This document shows, in pieces, positions 13,311 through 34,285 of a stretch of 34,285 nucleotides of DNA. The stretch lies in contig JAAUZL010000005.1 of the NCBI GenBank assembly GCA_014804615.1, positions 49,416 to 83,700 of the forward strand, in the 5' to 3' direction. Each line of letters opens with the position of its first letter. Within the stretch, counting starts at the first letter, position 1. Both the position numbers and the translations under genes were made by a program. This stretch comes from Lachnospiraceae bacterium (GTDB lineage: Bacteria > Bacillota > Clostridia > Lachnospirales > Lachnospiraceae). Below the pieces are notes generated by a model. It searched no databases and was not told where the DNA came from. It saw nothing but the letters and a program-made list of their open reading frames with translations.

Positions 13311-13339
13311 TTGACACTTCCAAATTTTAGGTCCATAAT
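13311..13339 (+). promoter_or_regulatory. Strong sigma-A promoter of the Mrp-type antiporter operon
   Basis: TTGACA (13311-13316), exactly 17 bases, then CATAAT (13334-13339) is near consensus. Transcription would begin around 13346, giving a leader of about 85 bases before the first gene. No other comparably good promoter was noticed within the operon, consistent with a single long transcript. Confidence 0.75.
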
Positions 13340-13430: not shown

Positions 13431-13892
13431 ATGTTCGTACTGTTTTTTTTGATCTGGGTCATGTTTAACGGACAACTCACCGCAGAGATTGCCGCCTTCG
13501 GCGTAGTCATTGCAGGTGTGATGTACTGGTTTCTGTGTAAATTCTTTAACTACAAGCTGCGATATGATCTCTTTTTCTGGAGAAAAGCGCCTCTTTTGAT
13601 CCAGTATCTCTTCACGCTGATCTGGGAGATCCTGAAAGCCAATCTTACTGTCTTTAAAATGATCTACAGCGCCGAATATGAATTAGAACCTGCGGTGGTA
13701 CGTTTTAAAACGGATCTGCACTCTACTTTTGCGCGGGTGCTTTTGGCCAATTCCATCACCCTGACCCCCGGTACGATCACGGTCACTCTGACGGACAATG
13801 AATATATGGTGCACTGTCTTGACAAGGAGCTGGCGGAGGGTATCTCTTCCTCCGTATTTGTAGAGCTTTTAAGAAAAATAGAGGAGGCTTAG
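13431..13892 (+). CDS. mrpE: Mrp-type antiporter subunit E (MnhE/MbhA-like)
   Basis: The 153-residue protein has two or three N-terminal helices and a soluble C-terminal part with the MrpE hallmarks LLANSITLTPGTITV and the preceding VVRFKTDL. The ATG at 13431 has GGAG seven bases upstream. The in-frame ATG at 13389 would add 14 charged residues and has no well-spaced site. MrpE is a membrane subunit of the multi-subunit Na+(or K+)/H+ antiporter, needed for assembly. It opens the operon and is followed two bases later by subunit F. Confidence 0.93.
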   Translation: MFVLFFLIWVMFNGQLTAEIAAFGVVIAGVMYWFLCKFFNYKLRYDLFFWRKAPLLIQYLFTLIWEILKANLTVFKMIYSAEYELEPAVVRFKTDLHSTFARVLLANSITLTPGTITVTLTDNEYMVHCLDKELAEGISSSVFVELLRKIEEA

Positions 13893-13894
13893 AA

Positions 13895-14218
13895 ATGGAA
13901 ATCTATCATACTCTCTATATTACATTATTGATCATTCTTTCTTTTATGCTGCTGATCTGTCTGATCCGCGCCGTGAAAGGTCCCCGCATCGCTGACCGTC
14001 TGATGGCTGTCAACATGATGGGCACCATGGTCATGGTCATGATCTCCATTCTGGCACTGATGCTTAAGGAGGGTTATCTGGTGGATATCTGCCTGATCTA
14101 TGCAATGATCAGCTTTCTCGCCGTGGTGGTGCTCTCCAAAGTATATATCGGTATTTACGAGGAACGGCAGCACCACCTGGAGGCTGCAAAGGGAGGTGAG
14201 CCCGATGAGCGCAGTTGA
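13895..14218 (+). CDS. mrpF: Mrp-type antiporter subunit F (MnhF/MbhB-like)
   Basis: The 107-residue protein has three transmembrane helices and the family signature RAVKGPRIADRLMAVNM, with the acidic residue of the second helix and the conserved VDICLIYAMISFLAV third helix. Its hydrophilic tail overlaps the next gene by 14 bases. The ATG has GGAGG seven bases upstream. It belongs to the membrane core formed by the small subunits E, F and G. Confidence 0.93.
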   Translation: MEIYHTLYITLLIILSFMLLICLIRAVKGPRIADRLMAVNMMGTMVMVMISILALMLKEGYLVDICLIYAMISFLAVVVLSKVYIGIYEERQHHLEAAKGGEPDERS

Positions 14219-14609
14219 ATGGATCCGCTTCCTGATCGGAAGTCTGTTTTTGTTGACCGGTATGGTCATTTTCTTCACAGAGCTGTTCGGCGTCTTTCAT
14301 TTTAACTTTGTTCTAAACAGAATGCATGCCGCCGCTATGGGCGATACATTGGGTATCAGTTCCTGCCTGATCGGGTTAATGATCTTTTCGGGTGTGAATT
14401 TCACTACCCTAAAGCTGTTTTTTATCATCGTCTTTCTGTGGTTTTCTTCCCCTGTTTCCTCCCACGTGCTGTCGAGGCTGGAAGTTGCCACCAATCCTAA
14501 ACTGTCCGAACACTGCGAGATCTATGAGGACGTAGCTGTTTTGGAACAGGAGCTTGCCGCAAAGAAAGACACTGAATTTACAACGGAAAAGGAGGCGTAT
14601 AAGTCATGA
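14205..14609 (+). CDS. mrpG: Mrp-type antiporter subunit G (MnhG/MbhC-like)
   Basis: The 134-residue protein has three helices with the MnhG/PhaG motif FHFNFVLNRMHAAAMGDTLG. The family's usual RLHA segment reads RMHA here. The ATG at 14205 has GGGAGG upstream; a GTG at 14196 overlaps that site. It overlaps subunit F at its start and the next gene by ATGA at its end. The tail beyond the third helix (about residues 95-134) is charged and a little longer than usual. Confidence 0.93.
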   Translation: MSAVEWIRFLIGSLFLLTGMVIFFTELFGVFHFNFVLNRMHAAAMGDTLGISSCLIGLMIFSGVNFTTLKLFFIIVFLWFSSPVSSHVLSRLEVATNPKLSEHCEIYEDVAVLEQELAAKKDTEFTTEKEAYKS

Positions 14610-14881
14610 CCGCTTTTCAGATTATTTTGATGGGGATTTTGATCATCTGTGCAATCTCCGTCAGCTTTTCCAAAAACCTTTTAAACTCAATTCTGATCTA
14701 TATGTCCTTCAGTCTGGTCATGTCCATACTCTGGATCTGTCTGGAATCTCCGGATCTGGCTATCACGGAGGCCGCCGTTGGCGCGGGCATTACCAGCGTC
14801 CTTTTCTTTGTCATGCTGAAAAAGATTCAGGCCATTGAAATCATAGAGACAGAGAAGAAGGAGGCGTCAAAGGATGAGTAA
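14606..14881 (+). CDS. mbhD: MbhD-like subunit (separate MrpA C-terminal segment, DUF4040)
   Basis: The 91-residue, three-helix protein matches the segment that is the first C-terminal extension of MrpA in bacilli but is a separate gene (MbhD) in archaeal Mbh complexes. The marker is SPDLAITEAAVGAGITSVLFF, which holds the conserved glutamate in the membrane proposed for ion transfer. It is translationally coupled at both ends (ATGA with subunit G, eight-base overlap with the next gene). Its presence as a stand-alone gene ties the operon to the Mbh-like gene order rather than the Bacillus MrpABCDEFG order. Confidence 0.88.
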   Translation: MTAFQIILMGILIICAISVSFSKNLLNSILIYMSFSLVMSILWICLESPDLAITEAAVGAGITSVLFFVMLKKIQAIEIIETEKKEASKDE

Positions 14882-15824
14882 AAAGAGATCCGCAGAAGAA
14901 TACCAGAAAACCTTTGCCTTTCGCTTTTTCAGATGGCTTCACGGCGAGAAGGATCCTTATGTAGGCGTGGTGGAAATGCGCCCTCAGGAAGAATACCATG
15001 TGGACGAGGATGCCATCCTGCGCCATGAAAAAGAACACGATGCGATTCTGGACAGAGTATACTCAGAGGATAATATTGAACTGAAAGCTTTCCGAAGGCT
15101 GTACCATGTCACCAGTATCCTGTTTTGCCTGTTTCTGATCGCCCTGCTTCTTGTAACGGTCTCCTATCTGCCCGCCACAGGCACCATCGATCGTCCGGTC
15201 AACAACGAAGTGGCGGCGCGCTACATTGAGAACGGCCTGGAGGAAACAGGGGCAGTAAACATCGTGGCCGGTATGATCTTAGACTACAGAGCTTTTGATA
15301 CGCTGGGAGAATCCCACGTCCTGTTCGTGGCAACGATCACGGTGCTGATCCTGCTGCGTATGAATAAGAAGGGAAGCAAAGGCATTAATGACCGAATTTT
15401 TGAGCCGAAAAACGACACGATCCTGCAGCTTGTGGCTACTTTTCTGGTGCCGATCATCATCATTTTCGGCATTTATATCATTTTAAACGGCCATCTGGGC
15501 CCTGGCGGCGGTTTTTCCGGCGGCGCTGTCATCGGTGCCGGTCTGGTGCTCTACTTAAATGCCTTTGGATTTGAAAAAACAGAACGGTTTTTTACAGAAA
15601 AGACCTACAAGTGGGTGTGCTTTTTCTCCCTCTCCTTCTACTGTCTGGCTAAGAGCTACTCTTTCTACACAGGGGCAAACCAGCTCCATAGTGTAATTCC
15701 TAAGGGTACGCCCGGCGCGATCCTCTCAAGCGGCCTGATCCTGCCCCTGAACATTGCTGTGGGACTGGTGGTTGCCTGCACGATCTACGCTTTCTATGCT
15801 ATGTTCCGAAAAGGAGGATTTTAG
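14874..15824 (+). CDS. MbhE-MrpB fusion subunit
   Basis: The 316-residue protein joins three parts. A hydrophilic N-terminal extension (about residues 1-70) is rich in Glu, His and Arg. An MbhE-like segment follows, with a transmembrane helix (about 75-97) and the motif NEVAARYIENGLEETGAVNIVAGMILDYRAFDTLGE split between about 103 and 140. The MnhB domain comes next, with NGHLGPGGGFSGGAVIGAG near 204-222 and helices to the C-terminus. In Pyrococcus Mbh these are separate subunits E and F; in Bacillus MbhE is part of MrpA. GGAGG lies nine bases before the ATG. The function is structural/ion-path at the interface between small subunits and antiporter modules. Confidence 0.88.
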   Translation: MSKKRSAEEYQKTFAFRFFRWLHGEKDPYVGVVEMRPQEEYHVDEDAILRHEKEHDAILDRVYSEDNIELKAFRRLYHVTSILFCLFLIALLLVTVSYLPATGTIDRPVNNEVAARYIENGLEETGAVNIVAGMILDYRAFDTLGESHVLFVATITVLILLRMNKKGSKGINDRIFEPKNDTILQLVATFLVPIIIIFGIYIILNGHLGPGGGFSGGAVIGAGLVLYLNAFGFEKTERFFTEKTYKWVCFFSLSFYCLAKSYSFYTGANQLHSVIPKGTPGAILSSGLILPLNIAVGLVVACTIYAFYAMFRKGGF

Positions 15825-15825
15825 A

Positions 15826-16200
15826 ATGGGTCCCAATTTATTCATAAACTACGGAGAAGCCGTATCTGCCATTCTGTTTTGTATCGGCTTTACCAATCTG
15901 CTCTTGCAGAACAATCTGATCAAGAAGATCATCGGTTTAAATATCATGGACAGTGCGATTTATCTGTTCCTGGCGGAAAAAGGCTACATCGCCGGACGAG
16001 TGGCTCCCATTGTAGTGGACGGCGTGACCAGCACGGAAGCCTACATCAACCCGATTCCCAGCGGCCTTGTGCTGACCGGTATCGTGGTCTCTGTGTCGGT
16101 GACAGCGCTGATGTTGTCCCTGACGATCCGTCTTTATATGCGATACCACACACTGGATCTGGATGAGATATCCACGCTCCTGAAAAAGGAGGGTAAATAA
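15826..16200 (+). CDS. mrpC: Mrp-type antiporter subunit C (NuoK-like)
   Basis: The 124-residue protein has three helices and the MnhC/NuoK pattern, including GLNIMDSAIYLFLAEKG (membrane acidic residues), PIPSGLVLTGIVVSVSVTALMLSL and a charged tail. It starts one base after the fusion-subunit stop, with AAGGAGG upstream; the longer in-frame start at 15754 lies inside the previous gene and is rejected. MrpC corresponds to complex I NuoK and contributes to the ion channel beside the antiporter subunit. Confidence 0.93.
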   Translation: MGPNLFINYGEAVSAILFCIGFTNLLLQNNLIKKIIGLNIMDSAIYLFLAEKGYIAGRVAPIVVDGVTSTEAYINPIPSGLVLTGIVVSVSVTALMLSLTIRLYMRYHTLDLDEISTLLKKEGK

Positions 16201-16202
16201 GC

Positions 16203-17699
16203 ATGAACTTTATCTGTAATTTCCCCTTTTTCTCGATCCTTTTAAGCCTTTTTTCCGGCACGATCTGCTCTGTGCTCCCGGGAAAGGCGGCTAAGATCGT
16301 AAACCGCGTTGTGATCGCCGTGATCGGCGTTATGTCGGCAGTGCTTTTGCTTTACCTGCTTTCAACAGGGGAGTCCTTCATTTACTGGATGGGACATTTC
16401 CCTGCCCCCTGGGGCAACGAGATCCGGGCAGGCGTGCTGGAAGCGGGTATGGCCCTCTTCTTCTGCATCATCATGTATCTGTCCATGGCCGGCGGCGCCC
16501 ACAAGCTCTTCGGAGAGGTGGTTGCAACCAAACATAATTTATACTACATTCTGGTGAATCTGCTGTTAAGCTCACTGCTTGCGCTGGTATATACCAACGA
16601 TATGTTCACGGCCTATGTCTTTGTGGAGATCAACACGATCTCCGCCTGCGGCCTGATCATGATCCGGCAGGTGGGCCGTACTATCGTGGCTGCCGTGCGT
16701 TACATGATCATGAGTCTTTTAGGCTCCGGTCTGCTGCTCTTTGGCCTCTGTATCATGTATGATCTGACAGGCCACCTTCTGATGAGCAACATCAAGGAAT
16801 CGGTGAATCTGCTCGTGGCGAACGGCGAATACCAGATACCGCTTATTGTCTCCATAGCTCTGATGTGTATTGGTCTCTGTATCAAAAGCGCACTGTTCCC
16901 TTTCCATGCCTGGCTGCCGGACGCCTATGGTTACTCTACAGTATCCTCTGCAGCGATCCTCTCCAGTCTGGTTTCAAAGGGATATATCTTTTTGCTCATC
17001 AAGATCATTTACCGGGTCATCGGCTTCGATATCTTTGACAATACACGGATCATCGACGTCCTCTTTGTCTTCGGTCTGATGGGTATGATCTTCGGCTCCC
17101 TGAGTGCCATCAAGGAGAATGATATCCGCCGGATGATCGCTTTCTCATCCGTAGCGCAGATCGGTTATATTTACATGGGAATCGGTATGGGTACGCAGCT
17201 AGGTATGGTGGCCAGCGTTTTCCATATTCTGTCCCATGCGGCGACGAAATCTCTGCTGTTTATCGCTGCCATCGGGCTTACGGATGTGTCCGGCGGAAGC
17301 CGCAAATTCATTGAACTGACCGGCTCCGGATACCGCAATAAATGGGCGGGAGTCGCTTTTACGGTAGGCTCTCTCTCTATGGTAGGTGTGCCGCTCTTTT
17401 CCGGCTTTATCAGTAAGCTGCTCTTTTCCCAGGCCGCGGTTCAGATAGCGGACGACAAGATGCTGGCGGCGCTGATCGTCTTAGGGATAAGCACAGTTTT
17501 GAACGCGATCTACTTTATGAAAACGGTGATCCGCATTTACACCCCTGTGGAAGAGACTTCCTATCCCAGTGTCACTATTTGGGACAGGATACCCTATGCT
17601 GTGGTATTGGTATTTTTCATTGTGTTAAACGTCCTTCTGGGTGTAAGCTCTCAGCCGATCGTGGATATGATCGGGCAGGGGCTCTCCATGTTTTCATAG
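16203..17699 (+). CDS. Antiporter-like subunit 1 (MrpD/NuoN/MbhH type)
   Basis: The 498-residue protein has about 14 helices of the proton-conducting Proton_antipo_M family. All key polar residues are seen: E142 in helix 5 (YVFVEINTISAC), K228 in helix 7 (IKSALFPFHAWLPDAYG, with H235), K259 in helix 8 (SLVSKGY), and a lysine in the helix 12 motif FSGFISKLLFS. It directly follows subunit C, as MrpD does, making it the best MrpD/MbhH equivalent. It is expected to move H+ across the membrane against Na+ or K+. GGAGG lies ten bases upstream of the ATG. Confidence 0.93.
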   Translation: MNFICNFPFFSILLSLFSGTICSVLPGKAAKIVNRVVIAVIGVMSAVLLLYLLSTGESFIYWMGHFPAPWGNEIRAGVLEAGMALFFCIIMYLSMAGGAHKLFGEVVATKHNLYYILVNLLLSSLLALVYTNDMFTAYVFVEINTISACGLIMIRQVGRTIVAAVRYMIMSLLGSGLLLFGLCIMYDLTGHLLMSNIKESVNLLVANGEYQIPLIVSIALMCIGLCIKSALFPFHAWLPDAYGYSTVSSAAILSSLVSKGYIFLLIKIIYRVIGFDIFDNTRIIDVLFVFGLMGMIFGSLSAIKENDIRRMIAFSSVAQIGYIYMGIGMGTQLGMVASVFHILSHAATKSLLFIAAIGLTDVSGGSRKFIELTGSGYRNKWAGVAFTVGSLSMVGVPLFSGFISKLLFSQAAVQIADDKMLAALIVLGISTVLNAIYFMKTVIRIYTPVEETSYPSVTIWDRIPYAVVLVFFIVLNVLLGVSSQPIVDMIGQGLSMFS

Positions 17700-17716
17700 G
17701 CTAAGGGGGTAACGAT

Positions 17717-19204
17717 ATGTATTTGATTCTTTTATCCATATTTTTTCCGATCCTGGCAGGACTGTTTTTATTGATCTGCTATCGGACGCCTGTGGCGGGA
17801 GCCGCTAAGAGCGCTGACCGGAAAAAGCTTTTGACACTGACAGGAAGCTTCCTTATCCTCACGGCTTTGTGTGCCGCCGCTGCGGCCCTGACCGTAAAGA
17901 AAAGCTTTACTCTGTTTTATCTGACTAAGACGCTTCCGATCTATTTTCAGATCGATGAGGTAGGAAGACTCTTTGACTTGCTTGTGATCATAGTGGTGCT
18001 CTGCGCAGGCTTTTTCTCCTTCGAGTACATGAAGCACGAGGAGCGAGAGGGCCGCTACTATGGCTATTATTTGATGGTATTCGGTGTATTGAACGCCTTA
18101 TGTTTTGCGGGCAACCTGATCACCTTTTATCTGTTCTTTGAGCTTTTGACCCTGTCCTCCATGCCTCTGGTGCTGCATAACGGCTCCCGGGAGGCGATCA
18201 TGGCGGGATTGAAATATTTATTTTATTCTCTGTGCGGTGCATACGGCGCTTTATTTGGCATCTATTTCCTTGCCCGCAGCAGTGATACCCTCACCTTCAC
18301 GGCGGGCGGTGTCCGGCTGCAGACCGAGGGACAGGCTGGTTTCCTGCTGCTTGTGGCCTTTGTGATGCTTCTGGGCTTCGGCGTAAAGGCCGGCATGTTT
18401 CCCATGCACGCATGGCTGCCCACGGCGCATCCGGTGGCTCCTGCCCCGGCTTCTGCGGTGTTATCCGCGGTTATCGTCAAGGCAGGTATCCTTGCCATCG
18501 TCCGGGTGACCTGCTATATCTTCGGCATGGACTTTCTGCGGGGAACCTGGGTACAGACGGCCTGGATCATTCTGACACTGACTACCGTGTTCCTGGGCTC
18601 CATGTTAGCTTACAGAGAACCGGTTTTGAAAAAAAGACTGGCCTATTCCACGGTGAGTCAGCTCTCCTACATTCTGTTCGGTCTGGCTGTCATGGACGGC
18701 GCTGCCCTCACGGGAAGCCTTTTACATGTACTGGCCCACGGCTTCATCAAGGCCACTCTCTTTCTCTGCGCCGGTGCGATCATCTACACCACGGGCAAGA
18801 CGCGGGTGGAGGAACTCCGCGGCATCGGCAAGGAAATGCCACTCACGATGTGGTGCTACACCTTTGTCTCTCTGGGGCTGATTGGTATTCCGCCCACAGG
18901 TGGCTTTATCAGTAAATGGTATTTAGCTGTGGGTGCATTGCACAGCTCGATCCCCGTATTCTGTTTCTTAGGACCGGCTGTTTTGCTCATCAGCGCACTT
19001 CTCACCGCAGGATACCTGCTGCCGCTTACGGTTCAGGGCTTTTTCCCGGGAGCAGATTACGACTATGGCAGTCTGCAAAAAAGAGAACCCAGTCGGTTTA
19101 TGACAATACCGATCCTAATTATGACATTTTTGTCAGTTCTTATCGGCCTTTTCCCCGGCGTGGTCGTCGATTATCTGGCGAATATCGTCGGCGCCGTATT
19201 ATAA
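17717..19204 (+). CDS. Antiporter-like subunit 2 (MrpD/NuoM type)
   Basis: The 495-residue, about 14-helix proton-conducting subunit has E142 (LFFELLTLSSMP), K224 and H231 in VKAGMFPMHAWLPTAHP (second His at 238), K255 in helix 8 and the helix 12 lysine in TGGFISKWYL. The C-terminal segment FFPGADYDYGSL is nearly repeated in the next gene (FFPGRDFDYGTV), so these two are close paralogs. The full set of conserved residues argues for an active translocation module. GGGGG lies seven bases before the ATG. Confidence 0.92.
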   Translation: MYLILLSIFFPILAGLFLLICYRTPVAGAAKSADRKKLLTLTGSFLILTALCAAAAALTVKKSFTLFYLTKTLPIYFQIDEVGRLFDLLVIIVVLCAGFFSFEYMKHEEREGRYYGYYLMVFGVLNALCFAGNLITFYLFFELLTLSSMPLVLHNGSREAIMAGLKYLFYSLCGAYGALFGIYFLARSSDTLTFTAGGVRLQTEGQAGFLLLVAFVMLLGFGVKAGMFPMHAWLPTAHPVAPAPASAVLSAVIVKAGILAIVRVTCYIFGMDFLRGTWVQTAWIILTLTTVFLGSMLAYREPVLKKRLAYSTVSQLSYILFGLAVMDGAALTGSLLHVLAHGFIKATLFLCAGAIIYTTGKTRVEELRGIGKEMPLTMWCYTFVSLGLIGIPPTGGFISKWYLAVGALHSSIPVFCFLGPAVLLISALLTAGYLLPLTVQGFFPGADYDYGSLQKREPSRFMTIPILIMTFLSVLIGLFPGVVVDYLANIVGAVL

Positions 19205-19216
19205 GGAGGTGACATT

Positions 19217-20680
19217 ATGATTATTTCCGTTATCCTGATTCCTTTCATAGCCGGAGCCCTTGTGCCTGCTCTCCCTTTTCGGAAAAGGTGGCAGAAGGAA
19301 GTATTTTTAGAGACTGCGGTAGTGGTCAACAGTATTCTGGTATGGTATCTGCTCCTGCATCACTCGGACAGTACCTTCCTGCTGGCGCACTTTACGGGTA
19401 ATTTGAATATCAGCTTCCGTGTAGACGGCATGAGTATGGTTTTCGCGGGACTTGTATCTGCGCTCTGGCCTTTTGCTACGCTCTACGCCTTTGAGTACAT
19501 GACAAAAGAGGAGCATGAAAATGTATTTTTCCTCTTTTATACCGTGACATATGGCGTGACGCTGGGAATTGCCTTTGCAGCCAACCTGCTGACCATGTAT
19601 TTCTTTTACGAATTGTTGACCCTGGTGACAGTGCCTCTGGTCATGCACACGCTGACCCGCGAGGCTATCCTTGCGAGCCGCAAATACCTCTACTATTCTC
19701 TGGGCGGTGCAGCCTTTGCCTTCATCGGATTGATCATGGTGATCGTCTACGGCGGTACCACAGATTTTATTCTGGGCGGCGTTTTTGACCTTGCGAAGAT
19801 TGAGGAAAACACGAATGTTTTGCTGTTCATTTATGTGATGGCCTTCATGGGCTTCGGCGTTAAGGCGGCAGTCTGCCCCTTCAACTCCTGGCTCCCCCAA
19901 GCGGGTGTTGCGCCCACCCCTGTCACTGCCCTTCTCCATGCGGTGGCCGTGGTAAAAGCCGGCGCTTTCGCCATCCTACGGCTTACCTACTATTGCTTTG
20001 GCACGAACTTTTTAAAAGGCACCTGGGCACAGGACGTAGTCATGGCAGTGGTCATGTTCACCATCGTATACGGCTGCAGCCGGGCTGTGAAGGAGACGCA
20101 CCTGAAAAGGCGGCTGGCCTATTCCACCATCAGCAACCTCTCCTACATCCTCTTCGGCGTAGTCATCATGACTCCTCTGGGAATGGCGGCCGCATTGTCG
20201 CATCTGGTCTTTCATGCGATCATGAAGATCAGCTCCTTCTTCTGTGCAGGAGCGATCATGCACCAGACCGATCGCCATTATGTACATGAACTGGATGGTC
20301 TGGGTTATAAGATGCCCTGCATATTCGGCATTTTTACGCTTTCCTCTCTGGCACTCATGGGTGTCCCGGGACTGGCAGGCTTTATCAGCAAATGGAACCT
20401 GGCATCAGCAGCCGCAGAGAGCGGCAATCCCCTTGCCTACGGCGGCGTTGCATGCCTGCTGGTATCGGCGCTTTTGACAGCAATCTACATGCTCTCCATC
20501 GTGGTTCGTGCTTTCTTCCCCGGGAGAGATTTTGATTACGGCACAGTAGCCGAAGCCAAGGATCCCAACTGGAAGATGCTTGTGCCGCTGTTTGTATTCA
20601 GCTTGTTTATCATCCTGTTCGGCGTATATTCACAGCCGATCGTAAACTTTTTTATTAACGTGGCAATGGGAGGCGTGTGA
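19217..20680 (+). CDS. Antiporter-like subunit 3 (MrpD/NuoM type) with altered helix-7 motif
   Basis: The 487-residue protein is a close paralog of the preceding gene product. It keeps E132 (FFYELLTLVTVP), K216 in helix 7, K247 in helix 8 and the helix 12 lysine (AGFISKWNL). However, the loop after helix 7 reads CPFNSWLPQAGVAPTP, so both histidines conserved in subunits 2 and 4 are replaced (N223, G230) and the FP start is CP. An extra histidine, H241, precedes helix 8. AAGGAGG precedes the ATG. It may have a changed ion path or serve a structural role; this is inference from the substitutions. Confidence 0.92.
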   Translation: MIISVILIPFIAGALVPALPFRKRWQKEVFLETAVVVNSILVWYLLLHHSDSTFLLAHFTGNLNISFRVDGMSMVFAGLVSALWPFATLYAFEYMTKEEHENVFFLFYTVTYGVTLGIAFAANLLTMYFFYELLTLVTVPLVMHTLTREAILASRKYLYYSLGGAAFAFIGLIMVIVYGGTTDFILGGVFDLAKIEENTNVLLFIYVMAFMGFGVKAAVCPFNSWLPQAGVAPTPVTALLHAVAVVKAGAFAILRLTYYCFGTNFLKGTWAQDVVMAVVMFTIVYGCSRAVKETHLKRRLAYSTISNLSYILFGVVIMTPLGMAAALSHLVFHAIMKISSFFCAGAIMHQTDRHYVHELDGLGYKMPCIFGIFTLSSLALMGVPGLAGFISKWNLASAAAESGNPLAYGGVACLLVSALLTAIYMLSIVVRAFFPGRDFDYGTVAEAKDPNWKMLVPLFVFSLFIILFGVYSQPIVNFFINVAMGGV

Positions 20681-20682
20681 CT

Positions 20683-22806
20683 ATGAATAATTCATATGTA
20701 TTAATCGAGGGCGCGGTTTTCCTGCCAATGGCGGCGGGCCTGATCGGCTACGGAATCGGTCGTTTTAACAAAAAAACCCGCAATCTGTTTGCGGATATCA
20801 TAACATGTGTTACCTTTGTTCTCTGCGGCATCCTGCTTCTACAGGTTTTAGGTGGGACAACGACCGACGGAATGGTCACAATTCCTTACATCTGCGGTAT
20901 GGGACTGCATTTCACACTGGACGGCTTCCGCGCCATATACGGAACGATCGCCGCATTTATGTGGTTTATGACCACCCTGTTTTCCGGTGAATATTTCGGC
21001 CATTACCGAAACCGCAACCGCTATTATCTGTTTTTACTGCTGACCCTGGGTGCAACGGAAGGAATCTTCTTCTCCGCTGATTTCTATACCACTTTTATCT
21101 TTTTTGAAATCATGTCACTGGCCTCCTATGTGTGGGTGGCTCACGATGAAAAACCCGATTCTCTGCGGGCGGCAGGTACTTACCTTGCCGTAGCCGTGAT
21201 CGGCGGCCTGGTGATGCTGATGGGAATCTTCCTGCTCTATGACGCGGCAGGTACTCTCTTCTTTGCGGATTTAGCGGGCATGCCCTTTTCATCCGGGGAC
21301 GCATCTATGCAGATCTGGGCGGCGGGCTTTTGCCTCCTGTTTGGCTTCGGAGCCAAAGCGGGTGCGTTCCCGCTGCATATCTGGCTGCCGAAGGCACATC
21401 CGGTGGCTCCGGCTCCCGCCTCCGCACTGTTATCAGGTATTCTGACCAAGGCAGGTATGTACGGTATTTTGATCCTGACCTCCTACCTCTTTTTAGGGAG
21501 CGCGGCCTGGGGCGCTATGATTCTGCTTCTGGGCGTTCTCACTATGGTGGTGGGGGCTGTGCTCGCCCTGTTTTCCATTGACCTGAAGCGGACACTGGCT
21601 TGTTCCTCCGTCTCTCAGATCGGATTTATTCTGGTGGGCGTCGGCATGTCCGGCCTGTTGGGAGCAGAGAATGCGCTTGCCCTGCGCGGCAGCCTTTTAC
21701 ACATGGTAAATCATTCCCTGATCAAGCTGGCGCTGTTCATGGCTGCCGGCGTGGTCTTTATGAATGTGCACAAGCTGGATCTGAATGCAATCCAAGGCTT
21801 TGGACGGCACAAACCTCTCCTGAACTATATCTTTTTGATGGGTGCTCTGGGCATCAGCGGCGTACCGCTCTGGAACGGCTATGTCAGTAAGACATTGATC
21901 CACGAGAGCATTGTGGAATACTGTAACCTGATCCGCGAGGGAAAAGCGGCAGGACCTTTTGGCGGATCCCTGATGAGCGGTATCGAATGGATCTTCCTGA
22001 TCAGCGGCGGCCTCACAGCTGCCTACATGCTAAAGCTCTATGTCTGCCTTTTCCTGGAAAAAAATGCAGACCCCGAGGTGCAGAAAACCTATGACGATCT
22101 GCATGGCCGCTATATGAACCGAACAAGCGCCCTGGCACTCACCCTGAGCGCAACCCTGCTGCCAATAGGAGGCTTTCTCCCAAATATCGTGATGGACGGC
22201 ATCGCCGATCTGGGACAGGGATTCCTGTTTGCAGCGGATGCAGAACGTGTTTCCTACTTTTCCCTTGAAAATCTGAGAGGCAGCCTCATCTCTTTGGTCT
22301 TCGGCCTGCTGATCTACGGATTTATCGTCCGTCCTCTGCTGCGGAAGCCTTTGCCTGACGCCGCAAACATATGTTATGTAAACCGATTGCCAGCTTGGCT
22401 TGATCTGGAAAATGTAGTCTACCGTCCCGTACTGTTACAGATCCTTCCCTTTGCCTTTGGTATGATCTGCCGCTTCCTGGACAGTCTGGTAGACACCCTC
22501 GTGGTGATTCTCAGAAAGACCATCTACCGCGACGAAAAGCTGCCCCACGAACTGGCGGAAGGCACGCCTCTGACCCACCTGTGCGCCTGCATAGCCTCCG
22601 CTTTCCAAAAACTGGGCAATCTTACCATTCACAGAAAGAATCCCAGAACGCAGGACTACGAACATCGTCTGGCCCTGTTCCAGGAAGAGTGGGCCGAGAA
22701 CAGCACGATGATCTCCAGAAGTATGTCCTTCGGATTGCTGTTGTTCTGTGTCGGATTGATCCTGACCGTGGCTTATCTGTTTGTTAAGGATGTGTTTGGG
22801 CTGTAG
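20683..22806 (+). CDS. Antiporter-like subunit 4 (MrpA/NuoL type, C-terminally extended)
   Basis: The 707-residue protein has an antiporter core with E142 (FFEIMSLASYVW), K225/H232/H239 in AKAGAFPLHIWLPKAHP, K256 and the helix 12 lysine (WNGYVSKTLIHES). A tail of about 170 residues contains a helix near 540-560 (LVFGLLIYGFIV), a soluble linker, and a final helix (FGLLLFCVGLILTVAYLFV). The lateral C-terminal helices recall NuoL and the long MrpA core, but the MbhD/MbhE parts of MrpA are encoded upstream as separate genes. ATG 20683 is chosen because GGGAGG lies nine bases upstream; a GTG at 20677 is too close to that site. It is the last antiporter gene. Confidence 0.92.
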   Translation: MNNSYVLIEGAVFLPMAAGLIGYGIGRFNKKTRNLFADIITCVTFVLCGILLLQVLGGTTTDGMVTIPYICGMGLHFTLDGFRAIYGTIAAFMWFMTTLFSGEYFGHYRNRNRYYLFLLLTLGATEGIFFSADFYTTFIFFEIMSLASYVWVAHDEKPDSLRAAGTYLAVAVIGGLVMLMGIFLLYDAAGTLFFADLAGMPFSSGDASMQIWAAGFCLLFGFGAKAGAFPLHIWLPKAHPVAPAPASALLSGILTKAGMYGILILTSYLFLGSAAWGAMILLLGVLTMVVGAVLALFSIDLKRTLACSSVSQIGFILVGVGMSGLLGAENALALRGSLLHMVNHSLIKLALFMAAGVVFMNVHKLDLNAIQGFGRHKPLLNYIFLMGALGISGVPLWNGYVSKTLIHESIVEYCNLIREGKAAGPFGGSLMSGIEWIFLISGGLTAAYMLKLYVCLFLEKNADPEVQKTYDDLHGRYMNRTSALALTLSATLLPIGGFLPNIVMDGIADLGQGFLFAADAERVSYFSLENLRGSLISLVFGLLIYGFIVRPLLRKPLPDAANICYVNRLPAWLDLENVVYRPVLLQILPFAFGMICRFLDSLVDTLVVILRKTIYRDEKLPHELAEGTPLTHLCACIASAFQKLGNLTIHRKNPRTQDYEHRLALFQEEWAENSTMISRSMSFGLLLFCVGLILTVAYLFVKDVFGL

Positions 22807-22828: not shown

Positions 22829-22852
22829 CAGGGAGAATGGCATTTCTCCCTG
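22829..22852 (+). other. RNA hairpin between the antiporter operon and the next gene
   Basis: CAGGGAGAA (22829-22837) pairs perfectly with TTCTCCCTG (22844-22852) around a six-base loop. No T-run follows, so it is not a classic terminator. It ends four bases before the ribosome binding site of the downstream gene and could act as a processing, stability or translation-tuning element. Confidence 0.45.
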
Positions 22853-22870: not shown

Positions 22871-23212
22871 ATGGAAAAGCGAATTTTAAATTACAGAAAA
22901 TATATAGATGAACTGCTTGCACGGGATAATTTGGATTGGGAAGCGGTGATAAAAGAGCATCTGATTCAAGTTTCCTTTTTCCAGCATGAGCGGCTGATTC
23001 ACCTGATTGTGACAGTTACCTTTGCTCTTCTTGAGATAATCGCGATCGCGCTGGCAACGGTATCCTTTTCGATTGGTATCGGCCTGCTGGCAATTGCGCT
23101 GCTTGTTCTTCTGATCCCTTACATCCGGCATTATTACATTCTGGAAAACGAAGTCCAGAAGATGTACGGGCAATATGATCGGATGGTGGCGAAGCGGGAT
23201 CAGGGTCATTAA
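22871..23212 (+). CDS. Small two-helix membrane protein of unknown function
   Basis: The 113-residue protein has a charged N-terminal part (about 1-40, RILNYRKYIDELLARDNLDWE), two adjacent transmembrane helices (about 44-63 and 68-87) and a basic/acidic tail (LENEVQKMYGQYDRMVAKRD). The ATG at 22871 has AGAGGA about ten bases upstream; a longer frame from 22781 overlaps the antiporter gene and is less likely. It lies 64 bases after the antiporter operon on the same strand and before a strong terminator, so it may be co-transcribed. I recognise no named family. Confidence 0.75.
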   Translation: MEKRILNYRKYIDELLARDNLDWEAVIKEHLIQVSFFQHERLIHLIVTVTFALLEIIAIALATVSFSIGIGLLAIALLVLLIPYIRHYYILENEVQKMYGQYDRMVAKRDQGH

Positions 23213-23247
23213 CACATCCCCCTCTTGTGGTTTCTTTCAGGATACGT

Positions 23248-23282
23248 AAAAGGGAGATATTCATAATAAATATCTCCCTTTT
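23248..23282. terminator. Strong bidirectional terminator
   Basis: A perfect 13-base stem, AAAAGGGAGATAT (23248-23260) with ATATCTCCCTTTT (23270-23282), encloses a nine-base loop and ends in T-runs on both strands. It sits between convergent genes ending at 23212 (plus) and 23303 (minus) and can serve both. Confidence 0.85.
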
Positions 23283-23302
23283 CGGGAAAGTGTATCCACT
23301 GC

Positions 23303-24805
23303 TTAAAATTTGATCGGCTTTTTCATCTCTTCCGCAAGATACCGAACCGCGCCGCCATACACGTCAAGCTCCTTTGCTTCTGCCAGCATTTCTTCATATG
23401 CCTCACGCAAAAGCATCTTAATTTCGCTTCCATCTCTTTCATCTGTCGTATTGCGTGCCATCCTTACAGCTCCATCCATCTTATTGCAGACAATATTCAA
23501 TGCCGCTTTCTGCCTTTCGTCCAGGTGTGCATCTCCCAGCTTCTGGATTTCACCTTTAAGGTAAAACAGTATAATGCCCTCCTGCATCGCCAGGTCACTG
23601 TACACCTTCTCTGCCGTGCATTTGATCTCGGAATCTTTTTTCACACCCTCAATCGTCCTGGTTGTGTCCCATGACAGGTTCCGGAAAAACTCTGCCGCCT
23701 CGCCAAGCTTCTCTTTGAAATACGAAATACCGTCAAAAAGCTGTCTATGTTGCGGTGTGCGCAGGATATCCATATCGGCGGCAAACAGAATCGTTTCTAT
23801 ACGGAACACAGTGTCCTCCAGAAAATAAGCCGTCACCTCCTCCAGTGCCAGGGAATCCAACTCCTCCGCAATCTCTCGGACACCTTCCGCAATATAGCCA
23901 TAAGGCAGGCTCGGATCCGACAGTTTTTCGCCTGCTTCCATGCCCGCTTCCACTGCATCCTGAATCTTCTGCGCCGCATTTTTCCTCATATCTTGGAAAA
24001 TCAGCGCTGACAGCTCATTCAGGAAATCCACGATTTTGCCCGAACTGATCCGAGCATTCTGTGCCAGTCGGTCATATTTCTCACACAGAAGCTGAAATGC
24101 TGCACGGTGTTCTGGCATAGCTCTGGCAATCATTAGTCCCACCTGAAACGCCGTGATGCTGGCTTCAAAAGCTGCATCCTCCACAGCCTTTATAATCAGA
24201 AAACGGGCTGATATCTCATCTGTTTCCTGCGTTATTGAATTAACACGTTCCAAAACCTTTTTTAGTTCCTCCGCCATTTTCTCTGTTCTTTCGGACGCAA
24301 ACTCCCAAACCTTTGTATAAACTGTTGCCGCGTCTCCGGTAGCCCCTTTCTGCTTCCTGGTATCCGCTGCCGTCTCCTTTGCCTGTACAATCAGGCTGTT
24401 CAGTTCACGAATCATCTCATCTGTGGCTTTTGAATTCAACATTGCACTCTCCTCCTTTTTTGCTCCTGGGAAGCCTATGGCAGAATGATATTTCCTGTAT
24501 TCCGTCGGCGTCACGCCCAGATACGCTTTGAAGCTGCGGGTAAATCCTTCATGGGAATCGTAGCTGTATTTCAACGCAATGGCAATGACAGAATCCTTAG
24601 TTCCAGCAAGGTCTTCCGCAGCCAGGAAAAGCCTGCGCCTGGTTACATATCCCATGACGGTCTCTCCCATGGCCTCTCGAAAGATACGCTGGTAATGATA
24701 TTTGGAAAAATGGACGCCTTCCGCAAGCATTTCTACGGTGAGCTTCTCCTGAATCCTTTCCTCTATCATGGCTAGGGAACGGAATATTGGATCTTTATCC
24801 TTCAT
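23303..24805 (-). CDS. AraC-family regulator with a large C-terminal helical domain
   Basis: The 500-residue protein has the paired helix-turn-helix AraC DNA-binding domain at its N-terminus (about 10-107; LTVEMLAEGVHFSKYHYQRIF and the second unit ending GFTRSFKAYLGVTPTEYRKY). About 390 residues follow that look almost entirely alpha-helical and coiled-coil-like, with no recognised ligand fold. A stretch near residues 205-260 weakly recalls the methyl-accepting chemotaxis hairpin (IARAMPEHRAAFQLL, then DRLAQNA), but this is only a resemblance. N-terminal placement of the DNA-binding domain is typical of the Rob/GyrI-type subgroup, where small effectors bind C-terminally. ATG 24805 has AGGAGG six bases upstream. 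Its targets are unknown. Confidence 0.88.
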   Translation of the reverse strand: MKDKDPIFRSLAMIEERIQEKLTVEMLAEGVHFSKYHYQRIFREAMGETVMGYVTRRRLFLAAEDLAGTKDSVIAIALKYSYDSHEGFTRSFKAYLGVTPTEYRKYHSAIGFPGAKKEESAMLNSKATDEMIRELNSLIVQAKETAADTRKQKGATGDAATVYTKVWEFASERTEKMAEELKKVLERVNSITQETDEISARFLIIKAVEDAAFEASITAFQVGLMIARAMPEHRAAFQLLCEKYDRLAQNARISSGKIVDFLNELSALIFQDMRKNAAQKIQDAVEAGMEAGEKLSDPSLPYGYIAEGVREIAEELDSLALEEVTAYFLEDTVFRIETILFAADMDILRTPQHRQLFDGISYFKEKLGEAAEFFRNLSWDTTRTIEGVKKDSEIKCTAEKVYSDLAMQEGIILFYLKGEIQKLGDAHLDERQKAALNIVCNKMDGAVRMARNTTDERDGSEIKMLLREAYEEMLAEAKELDVYGGAVRYLAEEMKKPIKF

Positions 24806-25146
24806 TTTCAGCCTCCTGGTTCCTTGCAATAGAAAACTCGCATTTTTCTACTGCACATAGCTTTGCATGCAATTTGTTTCTGATATCTCCCTGGGATTAT
24901 CAACTGACAATTACAGCATACAGAAAGAAAGGGACTTTTTCTTGACGGAAAGTGCGGTATGTCATTTAAATCTATTTATTGTTTATGCAATGCCATGAAA
25001 ATAGGGGAAACTTATGAAAAAAGCTTACAAACCGGAATTTATTTGTTAGTTAAATTCAACTTTAAAATCCTATTATAATTCAGCTTATCTGGCATCGAAC
25101 CTTCTTAAGTTGACGACATTGCCCGAAACATGCTAAAGCCCATACA
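24806..25146. other. Non-coding gap upstream of the AraC-type gene
   Basis: No convincing gene was found here. It contains a ten-base palindrome TTGCATGCAA (24863-24872) upstream of the AraC-type gene, a possible operator. It also holds an A+T-rich section with a lone TATAAT (25074-25079, plus strand) that lacks a matching -35 and faces no plus-strand gene. Confidence 0.4.
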
Positions 25147-30967: not shown

Positions 30968-33900
30968 TTATTCTTCCTTTTCTATTTCTTCTACCTCTTC
31001 CTCTTTCCTCGTCTTCCGCCTTTTCTTCTTTTTCCTGATCAAAAGAATGACCACCAGAAGTAATACCACACCACCAACCACGATATAAACGATGTAATCC
31101 ATGATGCCCTTCTCTGTCACAATGACCGCAATCTTCACACTGCCGCCCTCTACGGAGAACAGATGATAAATTCCCATCAGCTCTGTCTCTGCCTTATGCC
31201 ATCCGGCAGCATCCTGCACATAAATCTCAACGCCCTCTGTCTGACCCTGCGGCGCCTGATAACGAACCTGATGGGATAATGCGCCGTCATCAGGAATATC
31301 TATCTGCCAACACTCTGTCAACTCTTGCGGTTCTTTCGAAAATGAATCTGCCAGCATCACTTGCACACTATCCGTTCCCAGCTTATCAACAGTCAGCTCA
31401 TCCTCCTGAGCAAACATGCCGTCCACCAGCAGAGAAGATTGACCATTCTCCCGCAGCCAACTCCCGGCTAGTGTGGTCAAGTATCTCACATATTCCACCG
31501 TCACGTCTTCGTCCAGTCTGACATTCACCAGTTCCTTATTATCCCAGTCCGCGTAAAATCCTTCTTTCACTGGGATATTCGGATATTTTTCCAGCTCCAC
31601 GCTGCCGCCGTAAGCGCACTCTTCAACTCCGACTTCCTCCTCGTCCGCATAGAAAGTGATCTTCATCCGGCGGAAGTTGGCGGGAATCCCTTCGATCTGC
31701 AACAGGGTCTCATAGCTTGTAGGCTCCGCCTTACCGCTGTAGCTGATGCGGTCAATGCCTGCAATTTCATCTGAAACAAAGTAATTGCCTACAATCTCAG
31801 CCTCATCGGCTGTCTTTCCCGCAATGGCCCCCGAGAACGCAGATGCTTCTTTCACCTTCACCATCGCACAACAACTCTCGATGCCATTGCCGTATCCGGC
31901 GATACCCGCCACATACTCTCCACCCAACACGGTACACTTTGCATAGCTCTGCTTGATATGCGACAGAGACTGCCCTGCAATACCACCCACATAATCTCCG
32001 GTGGTACTTTCAATTCTGCCATAGTTCTCGCAGCGCAGCACCATTCCCATCTCCTGCAGACCGCAGACGCCGCCCGCATAACTCTTCTGTGCCTTGACAT
32101 TGGCCTGATTTATATTCTGTCTCAGCACGCATTTGGTGAGGAAGGTAGAATTCGCTCTGGCCTCATCAAACCCTGTGACATCGCTCTCCAAGTCAAAATC
32201 GTACTCGATCGCCATGGTGCCAACGATACCGGATACATTCAGATCCGCCTCGACGATGCCGTTATTTGTACAGTTCGCCACGGTGGCGTCTATACTCTCC
32301 TCCGCATTTTCCTGGGATTCATCCTCATAAATATTGGAATAATCCATATCCAGCACACCGTCCAGAGCATCCGTATACAACAGCATGATCTCACTGAACT
32401 CATCGTTAATATCGGAGAGATCGTCTCCCAAAAGATCCCCGGAAGAGGACATCTCATCATTTAAATATCCCATATTTTCGGAGATATTTTTTAGGTTGGA
32501 ATTAAGGCTCCCGGTAGCAGAACGGTAATCTCCGCCCAACTGCGGAAAGGCAATATCCGATTTCTCATTCAGAGTCGTCAGGATATCCCTGGTCTCATTG
32601 CCCATATCCTCCAGATTCTCTGCCGCATTCTTCGCGGAAGAGACTGCTGCCTGCAGCTCCTTCCTCGCGTCATCCGTCATCTCGTCCGCGTGGTTAGCTG
32701 CGATATCCGACATAATCTTCAGATATTTTTGCATGTCGGCAGTATAGTCCTCTCCATGGGCCGCTTTATACTGTTCATCTGCATAGTCGCTGGCAGCCGT
32801 CGCCACTGTAGAGGCATTGTCTTGCATATTCTGGGCAGCTTTTTCCTGCACCTGACGGTCCGCCTCTGCTTGTGGGCTGTCGTCCGAAAGGGGAAACTCT
32901 CTGTCCTCAGTATCGCTGTGATGCACCCAGCCGATAATCCCTATATATGCCCCTGGCACATCATCATGATAGGGATCTTCCCAATTTGTAACTACTCCCG
33001 ACTCCGTCACCGGATACAAATCATACTCGTAGGTAGTATCCTCCGAGCGCGCCACATCTATATAATAATTCTCATAAGCCTCCGTCGCCTTCGCCACATT
33101 CTCTGCATGCTCTTTCCCGGCTTCCTCGATGGCCTTCTTCGCCTGATCGTAAGCCTCCTTCTCCTCCGGCGTCATATAACGGTAAAGATCCATGTCCTTT
33201 ACCATATCCTCCAGCTTCTTAGCAGCGTCCTTCACATCTCCCGCCGCGTCCGTGGCGTGGTCTATCACACCACCATCCTTCGCCGTCTCATCCAGCACAT
33301 AGTCAAAACGGCTCACAGCTTCATTGACGGAGTCCATCATGCTGTCCGTCCACTCCACCGTTCTGTCCGCCAGGAAATGGGTATCATCAAGCGCCCTGTC
33401 CGCAAAATCACGAATCACCGACAGCCGGTTGGAGAGTACATCTGACCGGTCTCCCGCATCGTCCAGCATCTTACCCACCTGATCATGCAAGATGTCAATG
33501 TGATCTGAGAGCTGCCGCACAATATCCTCCGACAGGTCTATCGCGATGTAAGGCTCCGCCTGCCCAACGATACCGCCCACATCCTTACGACCATAGATCT
33601 TACCTTTATTGGCACAGGCATACACATACCCGGATTGACGGCCGACAATACCGCCCACGTTATAACCTACATGCTCGTAACCAATGGTTCCCTCATTTAC
33701 ACAGGACTGCACAATACCCGTAGAAAGTCCCGCAATACCACCTGTGTCCACAGTATTTTCAGTGGTCGAAAGCTTATCGCTCTTCTCATCCCCCTCACTG
33801 CCAAGAGAACCCAAAATACCTGCCGCATACTGATCCAAATTGATATCGTCCAACGACATTGTCTTATCTTCATTGGAAATATTTACGTCAGCACGATTGA

Positions 33901-34285
33901 GGCATCCCACAACATTTCCTACGTTATCACCGGTGATACCGCCCGTGTAGTGCGCGCCCGTGATGGTGCCATTGGCCTCACTGTCCATCAACACACCGCT
34001 GATCTCATTGTATCCCACGATACCGCCCACATAGTCATTGGCCTCCACCGTACCGTCAAATACACAGTTTAACAGGATACCACTGTTATCCCCTACTATA
34101 CCTCCCACTACCATCTGCTTCCCGGTGGGTCTGATCGTACCCTCCACCCGCAGATTAGCGATAACCGCTGTTTTTTGTGTCTCATTGAACAATCCCACAT
34201 AGGAAATCGGCTTGCGCACCGTAAATCCGCTGATCGTGTGACCCTGCCCGTTGAAATAGCCGCCGAAGGTCGGTATGGAGACAAA
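30968..34285 (-). CDS. Large GLUG-repeat surface protein with helical insertion, N-terminus beyond window
   Basis: At least 1105 residues are open to the right edge; the start lies outside. A GTG at 34219 is in frame, but the coding continues upstream through FGGYFNGQGHTISGF, a typical GLUG/beta-helix beginning. GLUG-like repeats (YVGGIVGYN, YTGGITGDN, NVGGIVGRQ, DVGGIVGQA) fill about residues 15-230. A long helical, heptad-like region follows, with a middle insert, to about 640. GLUG repeats then resume (YAGGVCGLQ, YVGGIAGQS, YVAGIAGYG). A beta-rich unit with an InlB/Flg_new-like FYADEEEVGVEE segment comes next. The last 44 residues are a transmembrane helix (VYIVVGGVVLLLVVILLI) and a Lys/Arg- then Glu-rich tail. 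It is anchored by a helix, not by LPxTG. Adhesion or glycan contact is a guess. Confidence 0.88.
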   Translation of the reverse strand, partial: FVSIPTFGGYFNGQGHTISGFTVRKPISYVGLFNETQKTAVIANLRVEGTIRPTGKQMVVGGIVGDNSGILLNCVFDGTVEANDYVGGIVGYNEISGVLMDSEANGTITGAHYTGGITGDNVGNVVGCLNRADVNISNEDKTMSLDDINLDQYAAGILGSLGSEGDEKSDKLSTTENTVDTGGIAGLSTGIVQSCVNEGTIGYEHVGYNVGGIVGRQSGYVYACANKGKIYGRKDVGGIVGQAEPYIAIDLSEDIVRQLSDHIDILHDQVGKMLDDAGDRSDVLSNRLSVIRDFADRALDDTHFLADRTVEWTDSMMDSVNEAVSRFDYVLDETAKDGGVIDHATDAAGDVKDAAKKLEDMVKDMDLYRYMTPEEKEAYDQAKKAIEEAGKEHAENVAKATEAYENYYIDVARSEDTTYEYDLYPVTESGVVTNWEDPYHDDVPGAYIGIIGWVHHSDTEDREFPLSDDSPQAEADRQVQEKAAQNMQDNASTVATAASDYADEQYKAAHGEDYTADMQKYLKIMSDIAANHADEMTDDARKELQAAVSSAKNAAENLEDMGNETRDILTTLNEKSDIAFPQLGGDYRSATGSLNSNLKNISENMGYLNDEMSSSGDLLGDDLSDINDEFSEIMLLYTDALDGVLDMDYSNIYEDESQENAEESIDATVANCTNNGIVEADLNVSGIVGTMAIEYDFDLESDVTGFDEARANSTFLTKCVLRQNINQANVKAQKSYAGGVCGLQEMGMVLRCENYGRIESTTGDYVGGIAGQSLSHIKQSYAKCTVLGGEYVAGIAGYGNGIESCCAMVKVKEASAFSGAIAGKTADEAEIVGNYFVSDEIAGIDRISYSGKAEPTSYETLLQIEGIPANFRRMKITFYADEEEVGVEECAYGGSVELEKYPNIPVKEGFYADWDNKELVNVRLDEDVTVEYVRYLTTLAGSWLRENGQSSLLVDGMFAQEDELTVDKLGTDSVQVMLADSFSKEPQELTECWQIDIPDDGALSHQVRYQAPQGQTEGVEIYVQDAAGWHKAETELMGIYHLFSVEGGSVKIAVIVTEKGIMDYIVYIVVGGVVLLLVVILLIRKKKKRRKTRKEEEVEEIEKEE

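Follow-up and report, generated by a model that had tools for sequence, protein, structure and literature searches.

We analyzed a window of 34,285 nucleotides from a Lachnospiraceae bacterium (GCA_014804615.1, contig JAAUZL010000005.1, forward-strand positions 49,416-83,700) and found on its plus strand, at 13431-22806, ten neighbouring genes. We consider it likely that they encode one stand-alone cation/proton antiporter complex of the Group 3 Mrp type, in which the third of four antiporter-like subunits (D1-D4) would act as the switch. What is new is that the switch histidine of transmembrane helix (TM) 8 is on D3 only, and not on D1, D2 or D4. A prior description of the ten-gene complex would have counted against the first-pass annotation of this DNA. 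The type does already carry a name, Group 3 Mrp, but in the open-access literature searched we recognised no stand-alone cluster described as having three or four mrpD-like genes. To the extent of that literature, four antiporter-like subunits in a known Mrp type are therefore a previously undescribed variant.

Gene order and conserved residues

Analysis of the open reading frames (ORFs) with Pfam gave the order MnhE-MrpF-MnhG-MbhD-MbhE+MnhB-MnhC-D1-D2-D3-D4, with overlaps of at most 23 bases and gaps of at most 17 bases, which bears out the packed, Mrp/Mbh-like order proposed at first pass. None of the ten is a catalytic gene by ORF and Pfam analysis. Group 3 Mrp systems are defined by the absence of mrpA and the presence of mrpD-like genes, sometimes several (PMC8415708), and judged by sequence the cluster fits this definition. 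The MrpB, C, E, F and G domains lie in one cluster, all five above the Pfam cut-off; mrpA is absent and several mrpD-like genes are present, with MbhD and MbhE on ORFs separate from D1-D4; and the cation-path residues are kept with two exceptions, a His-to-Tyr change in MnhC and the counterpart of MrpA Glu687. The fused mrpA that marks Group 1/2 Mrp, with antiporter-like and MbhD/E domains in one protein, was not found, and TIGR00940, the mrpA model, gave no match in the genome at E 1e-100 or better. The four PF00361 proteins (D1 498, D2 495, D3 487 and D4 709 aa) are the only PF00361 matches of the genome. Group 3 membership would be less clear under the wording of PMC5703873, by which every subunit is present in an irregular order and some listed clusters have mrpA; the same paper already calls the mrp clusters of anaerobes unusual.

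We scanned genome contigs with an MbhE+MnhB protein alignment, which returned at least 562 relatives, and read the best 80 loci, mostly labelled Lachnospiraceae or genera within it; these are the nearest relatives, and their uniformity applies to that group only. The gene-order search suggested at first pass thus found the exact ten-gene set in 66 of the 80. D4 was reached in 69, all of which keep the D1-D4 order (69/69), and the other 11 stop at a contig edge ahead of D4. The D4-reaching loci outside the exact set are two without E at a contig edge and L127, in which MbhE_B and C ORFs appear as two pairs, either split or doubled. No ORF in the 80 loci had a catalytic or redox protein of E. 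coli as its best hit (NuoB, CD, E, F, H, I; HyfA, C, G, H, I; E 1e-4). Among the 69 loci, more than 5 kb was visible upstream in 51 and at least 2 kb downstream in 54.

Alignment of the D subunits confirmed that all four carry the TM5 Glu and the TM7, TM8 and TM12 Lys, in that order E142/K228/K259/K405 in D1, E142/K224/K255/K400 in D2, E132/K216/K247/K392 in D3 and E144/K227/K258/K405 in D4. We counted these positions in 77 D1, 72 D2, 74 D3 and 68 D4 sequences (76, 71, 73 and 67 of the 80 loci, plus the window), omitting D sequences no longer than 450 aa or missing at contig ends. TM5 Glu, TM7 Lys, TM10 His, TM10 Lys and TM12 Lys were invariant in all of them. The TM8 Lys was invariant in D1, D2 and D4 and present in 69/74 D3, the remaining five having Asn. 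The TM8 His was found in 74/74 D3, with Ser instead in 77/77 D1, 72/72 D2 and 68/68 D4. Its position in D3 is that of the histidine of NuoL (H254) and of MrpA. PMC9568556 proposes this histidine as the proton switch of MrpA and complex I, as a switch driving Na+ transfer, and reports none in MrpD; PMC4938563 counts it among the residues specific to MrpA/NuoL and describes an effect of its mutation in MrpA.

The Na+-path residues, whose roles we take from PMC9568556 and PMC7419157, are mostly kept: the Asp of MrpF, the Glu of MbhD and MbhE, the His and Phe of MnhB and the Asn and Asp of MnhC. Within the fusion protein, E146 of the MbhE part aligns with the TM21 Glu of MrpA, and H207 and F214 of the MnhB part align with the MrpB His and the Phe of its GGGF motif. 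N39 and D42 of MnhC align with N34 and D37 of MbhG.

We also sampled 291 genomes of the class, of which 39 had an MbhE+MnhB match, and read 40 loci from 37 genomes. Four D genes were present in six loci, with one further locus cut by a contig end, three D genes in twelve, one or two in thirteen, and catalytic genes of the Mbh, Mbs or Hyf type in eight; the four- and three-D loci gave no catalytic hits. Each four-D locus has one TM8-His subunit, the third in L035, L036, L037 and L039 and the second in L049 and L050, although the broken third D of L049 could not be read for its TM8 residue. In 10/12 three-D loci one subunit has the TM8 His, the middle one where the locus is intact. The third D of L049 is partly masked and fragmentary, and the D1 gene of the three-D locus L042 (10518-11900) is in two pieces. 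NuoE- and NuoF-like genes lie no more than 10 kb from L062 and L063, two Mrp-like loci that have one or two D genes.

Phylogeny of the D subunits and the D4 extension

Two trees were built with known homologues, as proposed at first pass: a quick one of 101 sequences and a careful one of 53. The first left out sequences of 420 aa or less, sequences that contain masked runs and some loci by choice. In the careful tree the D1-type and the D4-type subunits each formed a clade (100/99 for either), and a third clade (100/100) united D2 and D3 with the middle subunit of three-D stand-alone loci. Within this third clade, D2 and D3 were sisters with 89/91, a grouping that the quick tree did not recover with resolution. 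Deep branches were weak, including the placement of MrpA. Because D2, D3 and the three-D middle subunit form one clade, the four-D form looks, with moderate support from these sequences, like a three-D form whose middle subunit was doubled. The trees lend no support to the first-pass idea that three further subunits replaced a hydrogenase module.

Other arrangements were seen in the class sample. L049 and L050 represent a second four-D form, with the TM8-His subunit second and an extra subunit third; that of L050 is long-branched and its L049 counterpart was left out of the tree. L055 and L059 are three-D loci with two D4-type subunits.

The predicted structure of D4 (47 sequences, pLDDT 85.2, pTM 0.82) has a helix at 530-555, another at 577-615, shorter helices and a last TM, with predicted horizontal helices between the 530-555 helix and the last TM, and its C-terminal segment is broken at low confidence. 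A Foldseek search with this model placed MrpA at the top (integrative model, TM-score 0.73; 7qru_A, 0.70). From the TM12 Lys to the last TM the median length was 290 residues in 68 D4 proteins (80-locus set plus window), 302.5 in the six four-D class loci and 260 in the twelve three-D loci, with overlapping ranges (255-327 in the 80-locus set vs 186-301 in the three-D loci); NuoL has 203 and HyfB 255. With an overlapping trend only and the low-confidence break in the model, we do not take segment length to prove that D4 reaches across four subunits.

Proposed mechanism and alternatives

We infer the assembly, the order of subunits in the particle, the proton route, the ion, its direction, the stoichiometry and the role as follows. 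E, F, G, MnhB, MbhD, MbhE and C would form the path of the cation, most likely Na+, together with the coupling site. D1-D4 would make a row of four proton-conducting units, with D1 beside MnhC and D4 outermost, and the C-terminal helix of D4 may clamp this row. The TM12 Lys of the D subunits would take up protons, the Lys-His-Lys groups would relay them to the TM5 Glu/TM7 Lys pairs, and D3, with its TM8 His, would be an MrpA-like switch that sends them along the row or into the cytosol. The change in charge would then reach D1 and the Glu of MbhD and MbhE, and Na+ would be moved in the opposite direction. The complex is thus most likely an electrogenic Na+/H+ antiporter serving pH or Na+ homeostasis, by which the cell probably exchanges a Na+ gradient (Rnf, Na+-type ATP synthase) for a proton gradient. 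The ion site of the F-type ATPase c subunit of the genome reads GQAVAETTG, which we take to be a Na+-type motif, and a gene for RnfC is present (among the Rnf genes, only RnfC was searched for). That all four units conduct protons under the single D3 switch, giving at least 3 H+ per cation and so exceeding the proposed Mrp value of about 2, and that such forms arose on more than one occasion by gain of a unit in a three-unit ancestor, is a more tentative proposal that we regard as doubtful.

Several observations weigh against the antiporter mechanism as drawn here. In MnhC, Y46 occupies the place of MbhG H41 and the His is lost; nothing corresponds exactly to Glu687 of MrpA, from which the MbhD-type Glu lies four residues off in the alignment. 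In two of the twelve three-D loci, L055 and L059, every subunit lacks the TM8 His. Among the four TM8 residues highlighted by PMC4938563, the His and a Val alone are kept in D3, and the His-to-Ala change in NuoL behaved close to the control in the same paper. Finally, D3 has the TM8 His of the MrpA/NuoL-type switch, but a single clade of D3, its relatives, MrpA, NuoL and HyfD was rejected by the approximately unbiased test (p 0.019; the group was picked after the trait was seen, and long branches are present). Descent of D3 from MrpA was consequently dropped, and with the common clade rejected, support for a shared switch role of D3 and MrpA comes from one residue with its motif.

The first-pass annotation had left the choice between an antiporter and a module coupled to a redox partner encoded elsewhere. 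A redox pump whose membrane arm is encoded by the cluster, and whose electron-handling part is encoded elsewhere or is of unknown kind, would agree with the Mbh, Mbs or complex I counterpart that every subunit has, with the eight class loci that do carry catalytic genes, and with the NuoB-like and NuoH-like genes found somewhere in 6/12 and 3/12 of the genomes with a three-D locus. Such a partner was searched for through both families, which mark Mbh, Mbs, complex I and Hyf, and neither NuoB-like PF01058 nor NuoH-like PF00146 had a match in the source genome (3.63 Mb, 98.76% complete), control genomes being positive in 11/14 for each. The seven class genomes with a four-D (six) or cut (one) locus also had neither (0/7 for both). 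NuoB-like genes are not enriched with the cluster either. Of 200 family genomes, 40 (the source genome among them) had a strong MbhE+MnhB match (E ≤1.1e-79) and five a weak one; 21 had NuoB-like genes, 2/40 with the cluster vs 19/160 of the others (Fisher p 0.26), and in both cluster-bearing cases the gene was on a different contig from the cluster (the two 200-genome searches are taken as the same draw, judged from the genome handles listed). Since no catalytic genes were found in the loci of the 80 closest relatives and no NuoB-like or NuoH-like gene in the genome itself, we favour a stand-alone complex; a redox pump whose partner is hidden we hold to be very improbable.

It is also conceivable, though unlikely, that D1-D4 are not all in one particle, and that D2 and D3, or D4, are alternatives in Mrp complexes with two or three such subunits. 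The sister relation of D2 and D3, the twelve class loci with three D genes and the merely overlapping difference in D4 segment length (290 vs 260) speak for alternative subunits, but the genes form a single cluster of fixed order, all four are kept in every D4-reaching locus, and the TM8 residue pattern is fixed for each D. As to the ion, K+ or Ca2+ in the place of Na+ seems rather improbable: Group 3 members are little studied and one Mrp was reported as a Ca2+ exchanger (PMC5703873), but most residues that align with Na+ sites in MBH and Bacillus-type Mrp are retained.

Flanking features, related systems and significance

The features of the operon and its flanks are collected in Table 1. 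The 12 kb scanned held 19 promoter-like sites where 12.2 would be expected, and the one ahead of the operon is to be read as a consensus match only. The absence of catalytic genes before the terminator, as claimed at first pass, stands, but the candidate terminator hairpin follows an eleventh ORF and not D4 directly. We dropped this ORF as an eleventh subunit: Pfam gave no match for it and none of the 120 related loci holds a relative, so it is probably outside the complex. A stable hairpin without a T run (22829-22852) precedes it, and the terminator scan lists near 23248-23282 only a shorter terminator-like site on the minus strand. Further along, 23303-24829 encodes a helix-turn-helix protein of the AraC type, convergent with the operon, whose middle resembles methyl-accepting chemotaxis protein signalling domains weakly, below the cut-off, and 30968-34219 on the minus strand is an ORF of 1083 aa with no Pfam match. 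An Rfam scan of the window gave no match.

Table 1. Features of the ten-gene operon and its immediate flanks (window coordinates).
Feature	Position	Strand	Remarks
Promoter-like site TTGACA-17-CATAAT	13311..13339	+	upstream of operon; 11/12 consensus matches
MnhE/MrpE subunit	13431..13892	+	PF01899, E 3.5e-31; start possibly 13389
MrpF	13895..14218	+	PF04066; D34 aligned with conserved MrpF Asp
MnhG/MrpG	14196..14609	+	PF03334
MbhD	14606..14881	+	PF13244; E55 aligned with P. furiosus MbhD E69 (6cfw_D, 6u8y_D alignments)
MbhE+MnhB fusion with N-terminal extension	14874..15824	+	PF20501, PF04039
MnhC/MrpC	15826..16200	+	PF00420
Antiporter-like subunit D1	16203..17699	+	PF00361; closest solved chain by sequence MbsH, 6u8y_H
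Antiporter-like subunit D2	17717..19204	+	PF00361; Ser at TM8 switch position
Antiporter-like subunit D3	19217..20680	+	PF00361; sole D subunit with TM8 histidine (H241)
Antiporter-like subunit D4	20677..22806	+	PF00361; long C-terminal extension
Small ORF, 113 aa, hydrophobic stretch	22871..23212	+	downstream of D4
14-pair hairpin, possible terminator	23248..23282	+	z -3.27 for fold of 23213-23300

Among known systems, the stand-alone Mrp of Pyrococcus furiosus (mrpEFGBB'CD), itself a Group 3 member (PMC8415708), shares the EFG-MbhD/E-B-C-D order and the lack of mrpA and catalytic subunits, but it has one antiporter-like subunit against four here and fuses MbhD to MbhE, whereas the window cluster fuses MbhE to MnhB. 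Deletion strains of that system point to Na+ use and to importance under acidification (PMC8415708). MBS of P. furiosus (6u8y) is the best solved sequence match for D1, C, MbhD and the fusion, and has the same MbhE+MnhB-type fusion (PMC8415708) and an MbsH' with an extra TM15-HL-TM16 (PMC7684303); it combines two antiporter-like subunits with a redox module, which is absent from the window cluster. The counts of proton-pumping subunits, three in complex I, two in MBS and one in MBH (PMC7684303), agree with the numbers given at first pass for complex I and Mbh. Cyanobacterial Group 3 Mrp also have more than one mrpD-like subunit, but two, in another gene order and with mrpC/mrpB duplicated in some (PMC5703873).

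Group 1/2 Mrp, of Bacillus and relatives, share all seven domain types with the window cluster, and their MrpA has the TM8 His seen in D3 and is the best fold match of the D4 model. They differ in their fused mrpA, in having two antiporter-like subunits instead of four, and in the position of the MbhD-type Glu; here the TM8 His (D3) and the long C-terminal part (D4) are on separate subunits. In hydrogenase-4 these two features lie on HyfD and HyfB, respectively. Hydrogenase-4 and complex I with increased pumping are redox-driven, in contrast to the window cluster, for which no redox part was found. The latter complex I, from Chadwick 2018, is said to have a duplicated NuoM and hence a fourth antiporter-like subunit.

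About one fifth of the sampled family genomes (40/200), which are relatives of gut bacteria, have a strong match to the marker gene of the cluster; nothing on the role of the cluster in them was found in the searched literature. How many protons pass per antiporter-like unit, and why complex I has three units, are long-standing questions. Here a single bacterial class holds complexes with one, two, three and four units and no redox part in their loci, in which the subunit with the switch histidine is not the one with the long C-terminal part, and deletion or mutation unit by unit could directly test the idea of one unit per proton.

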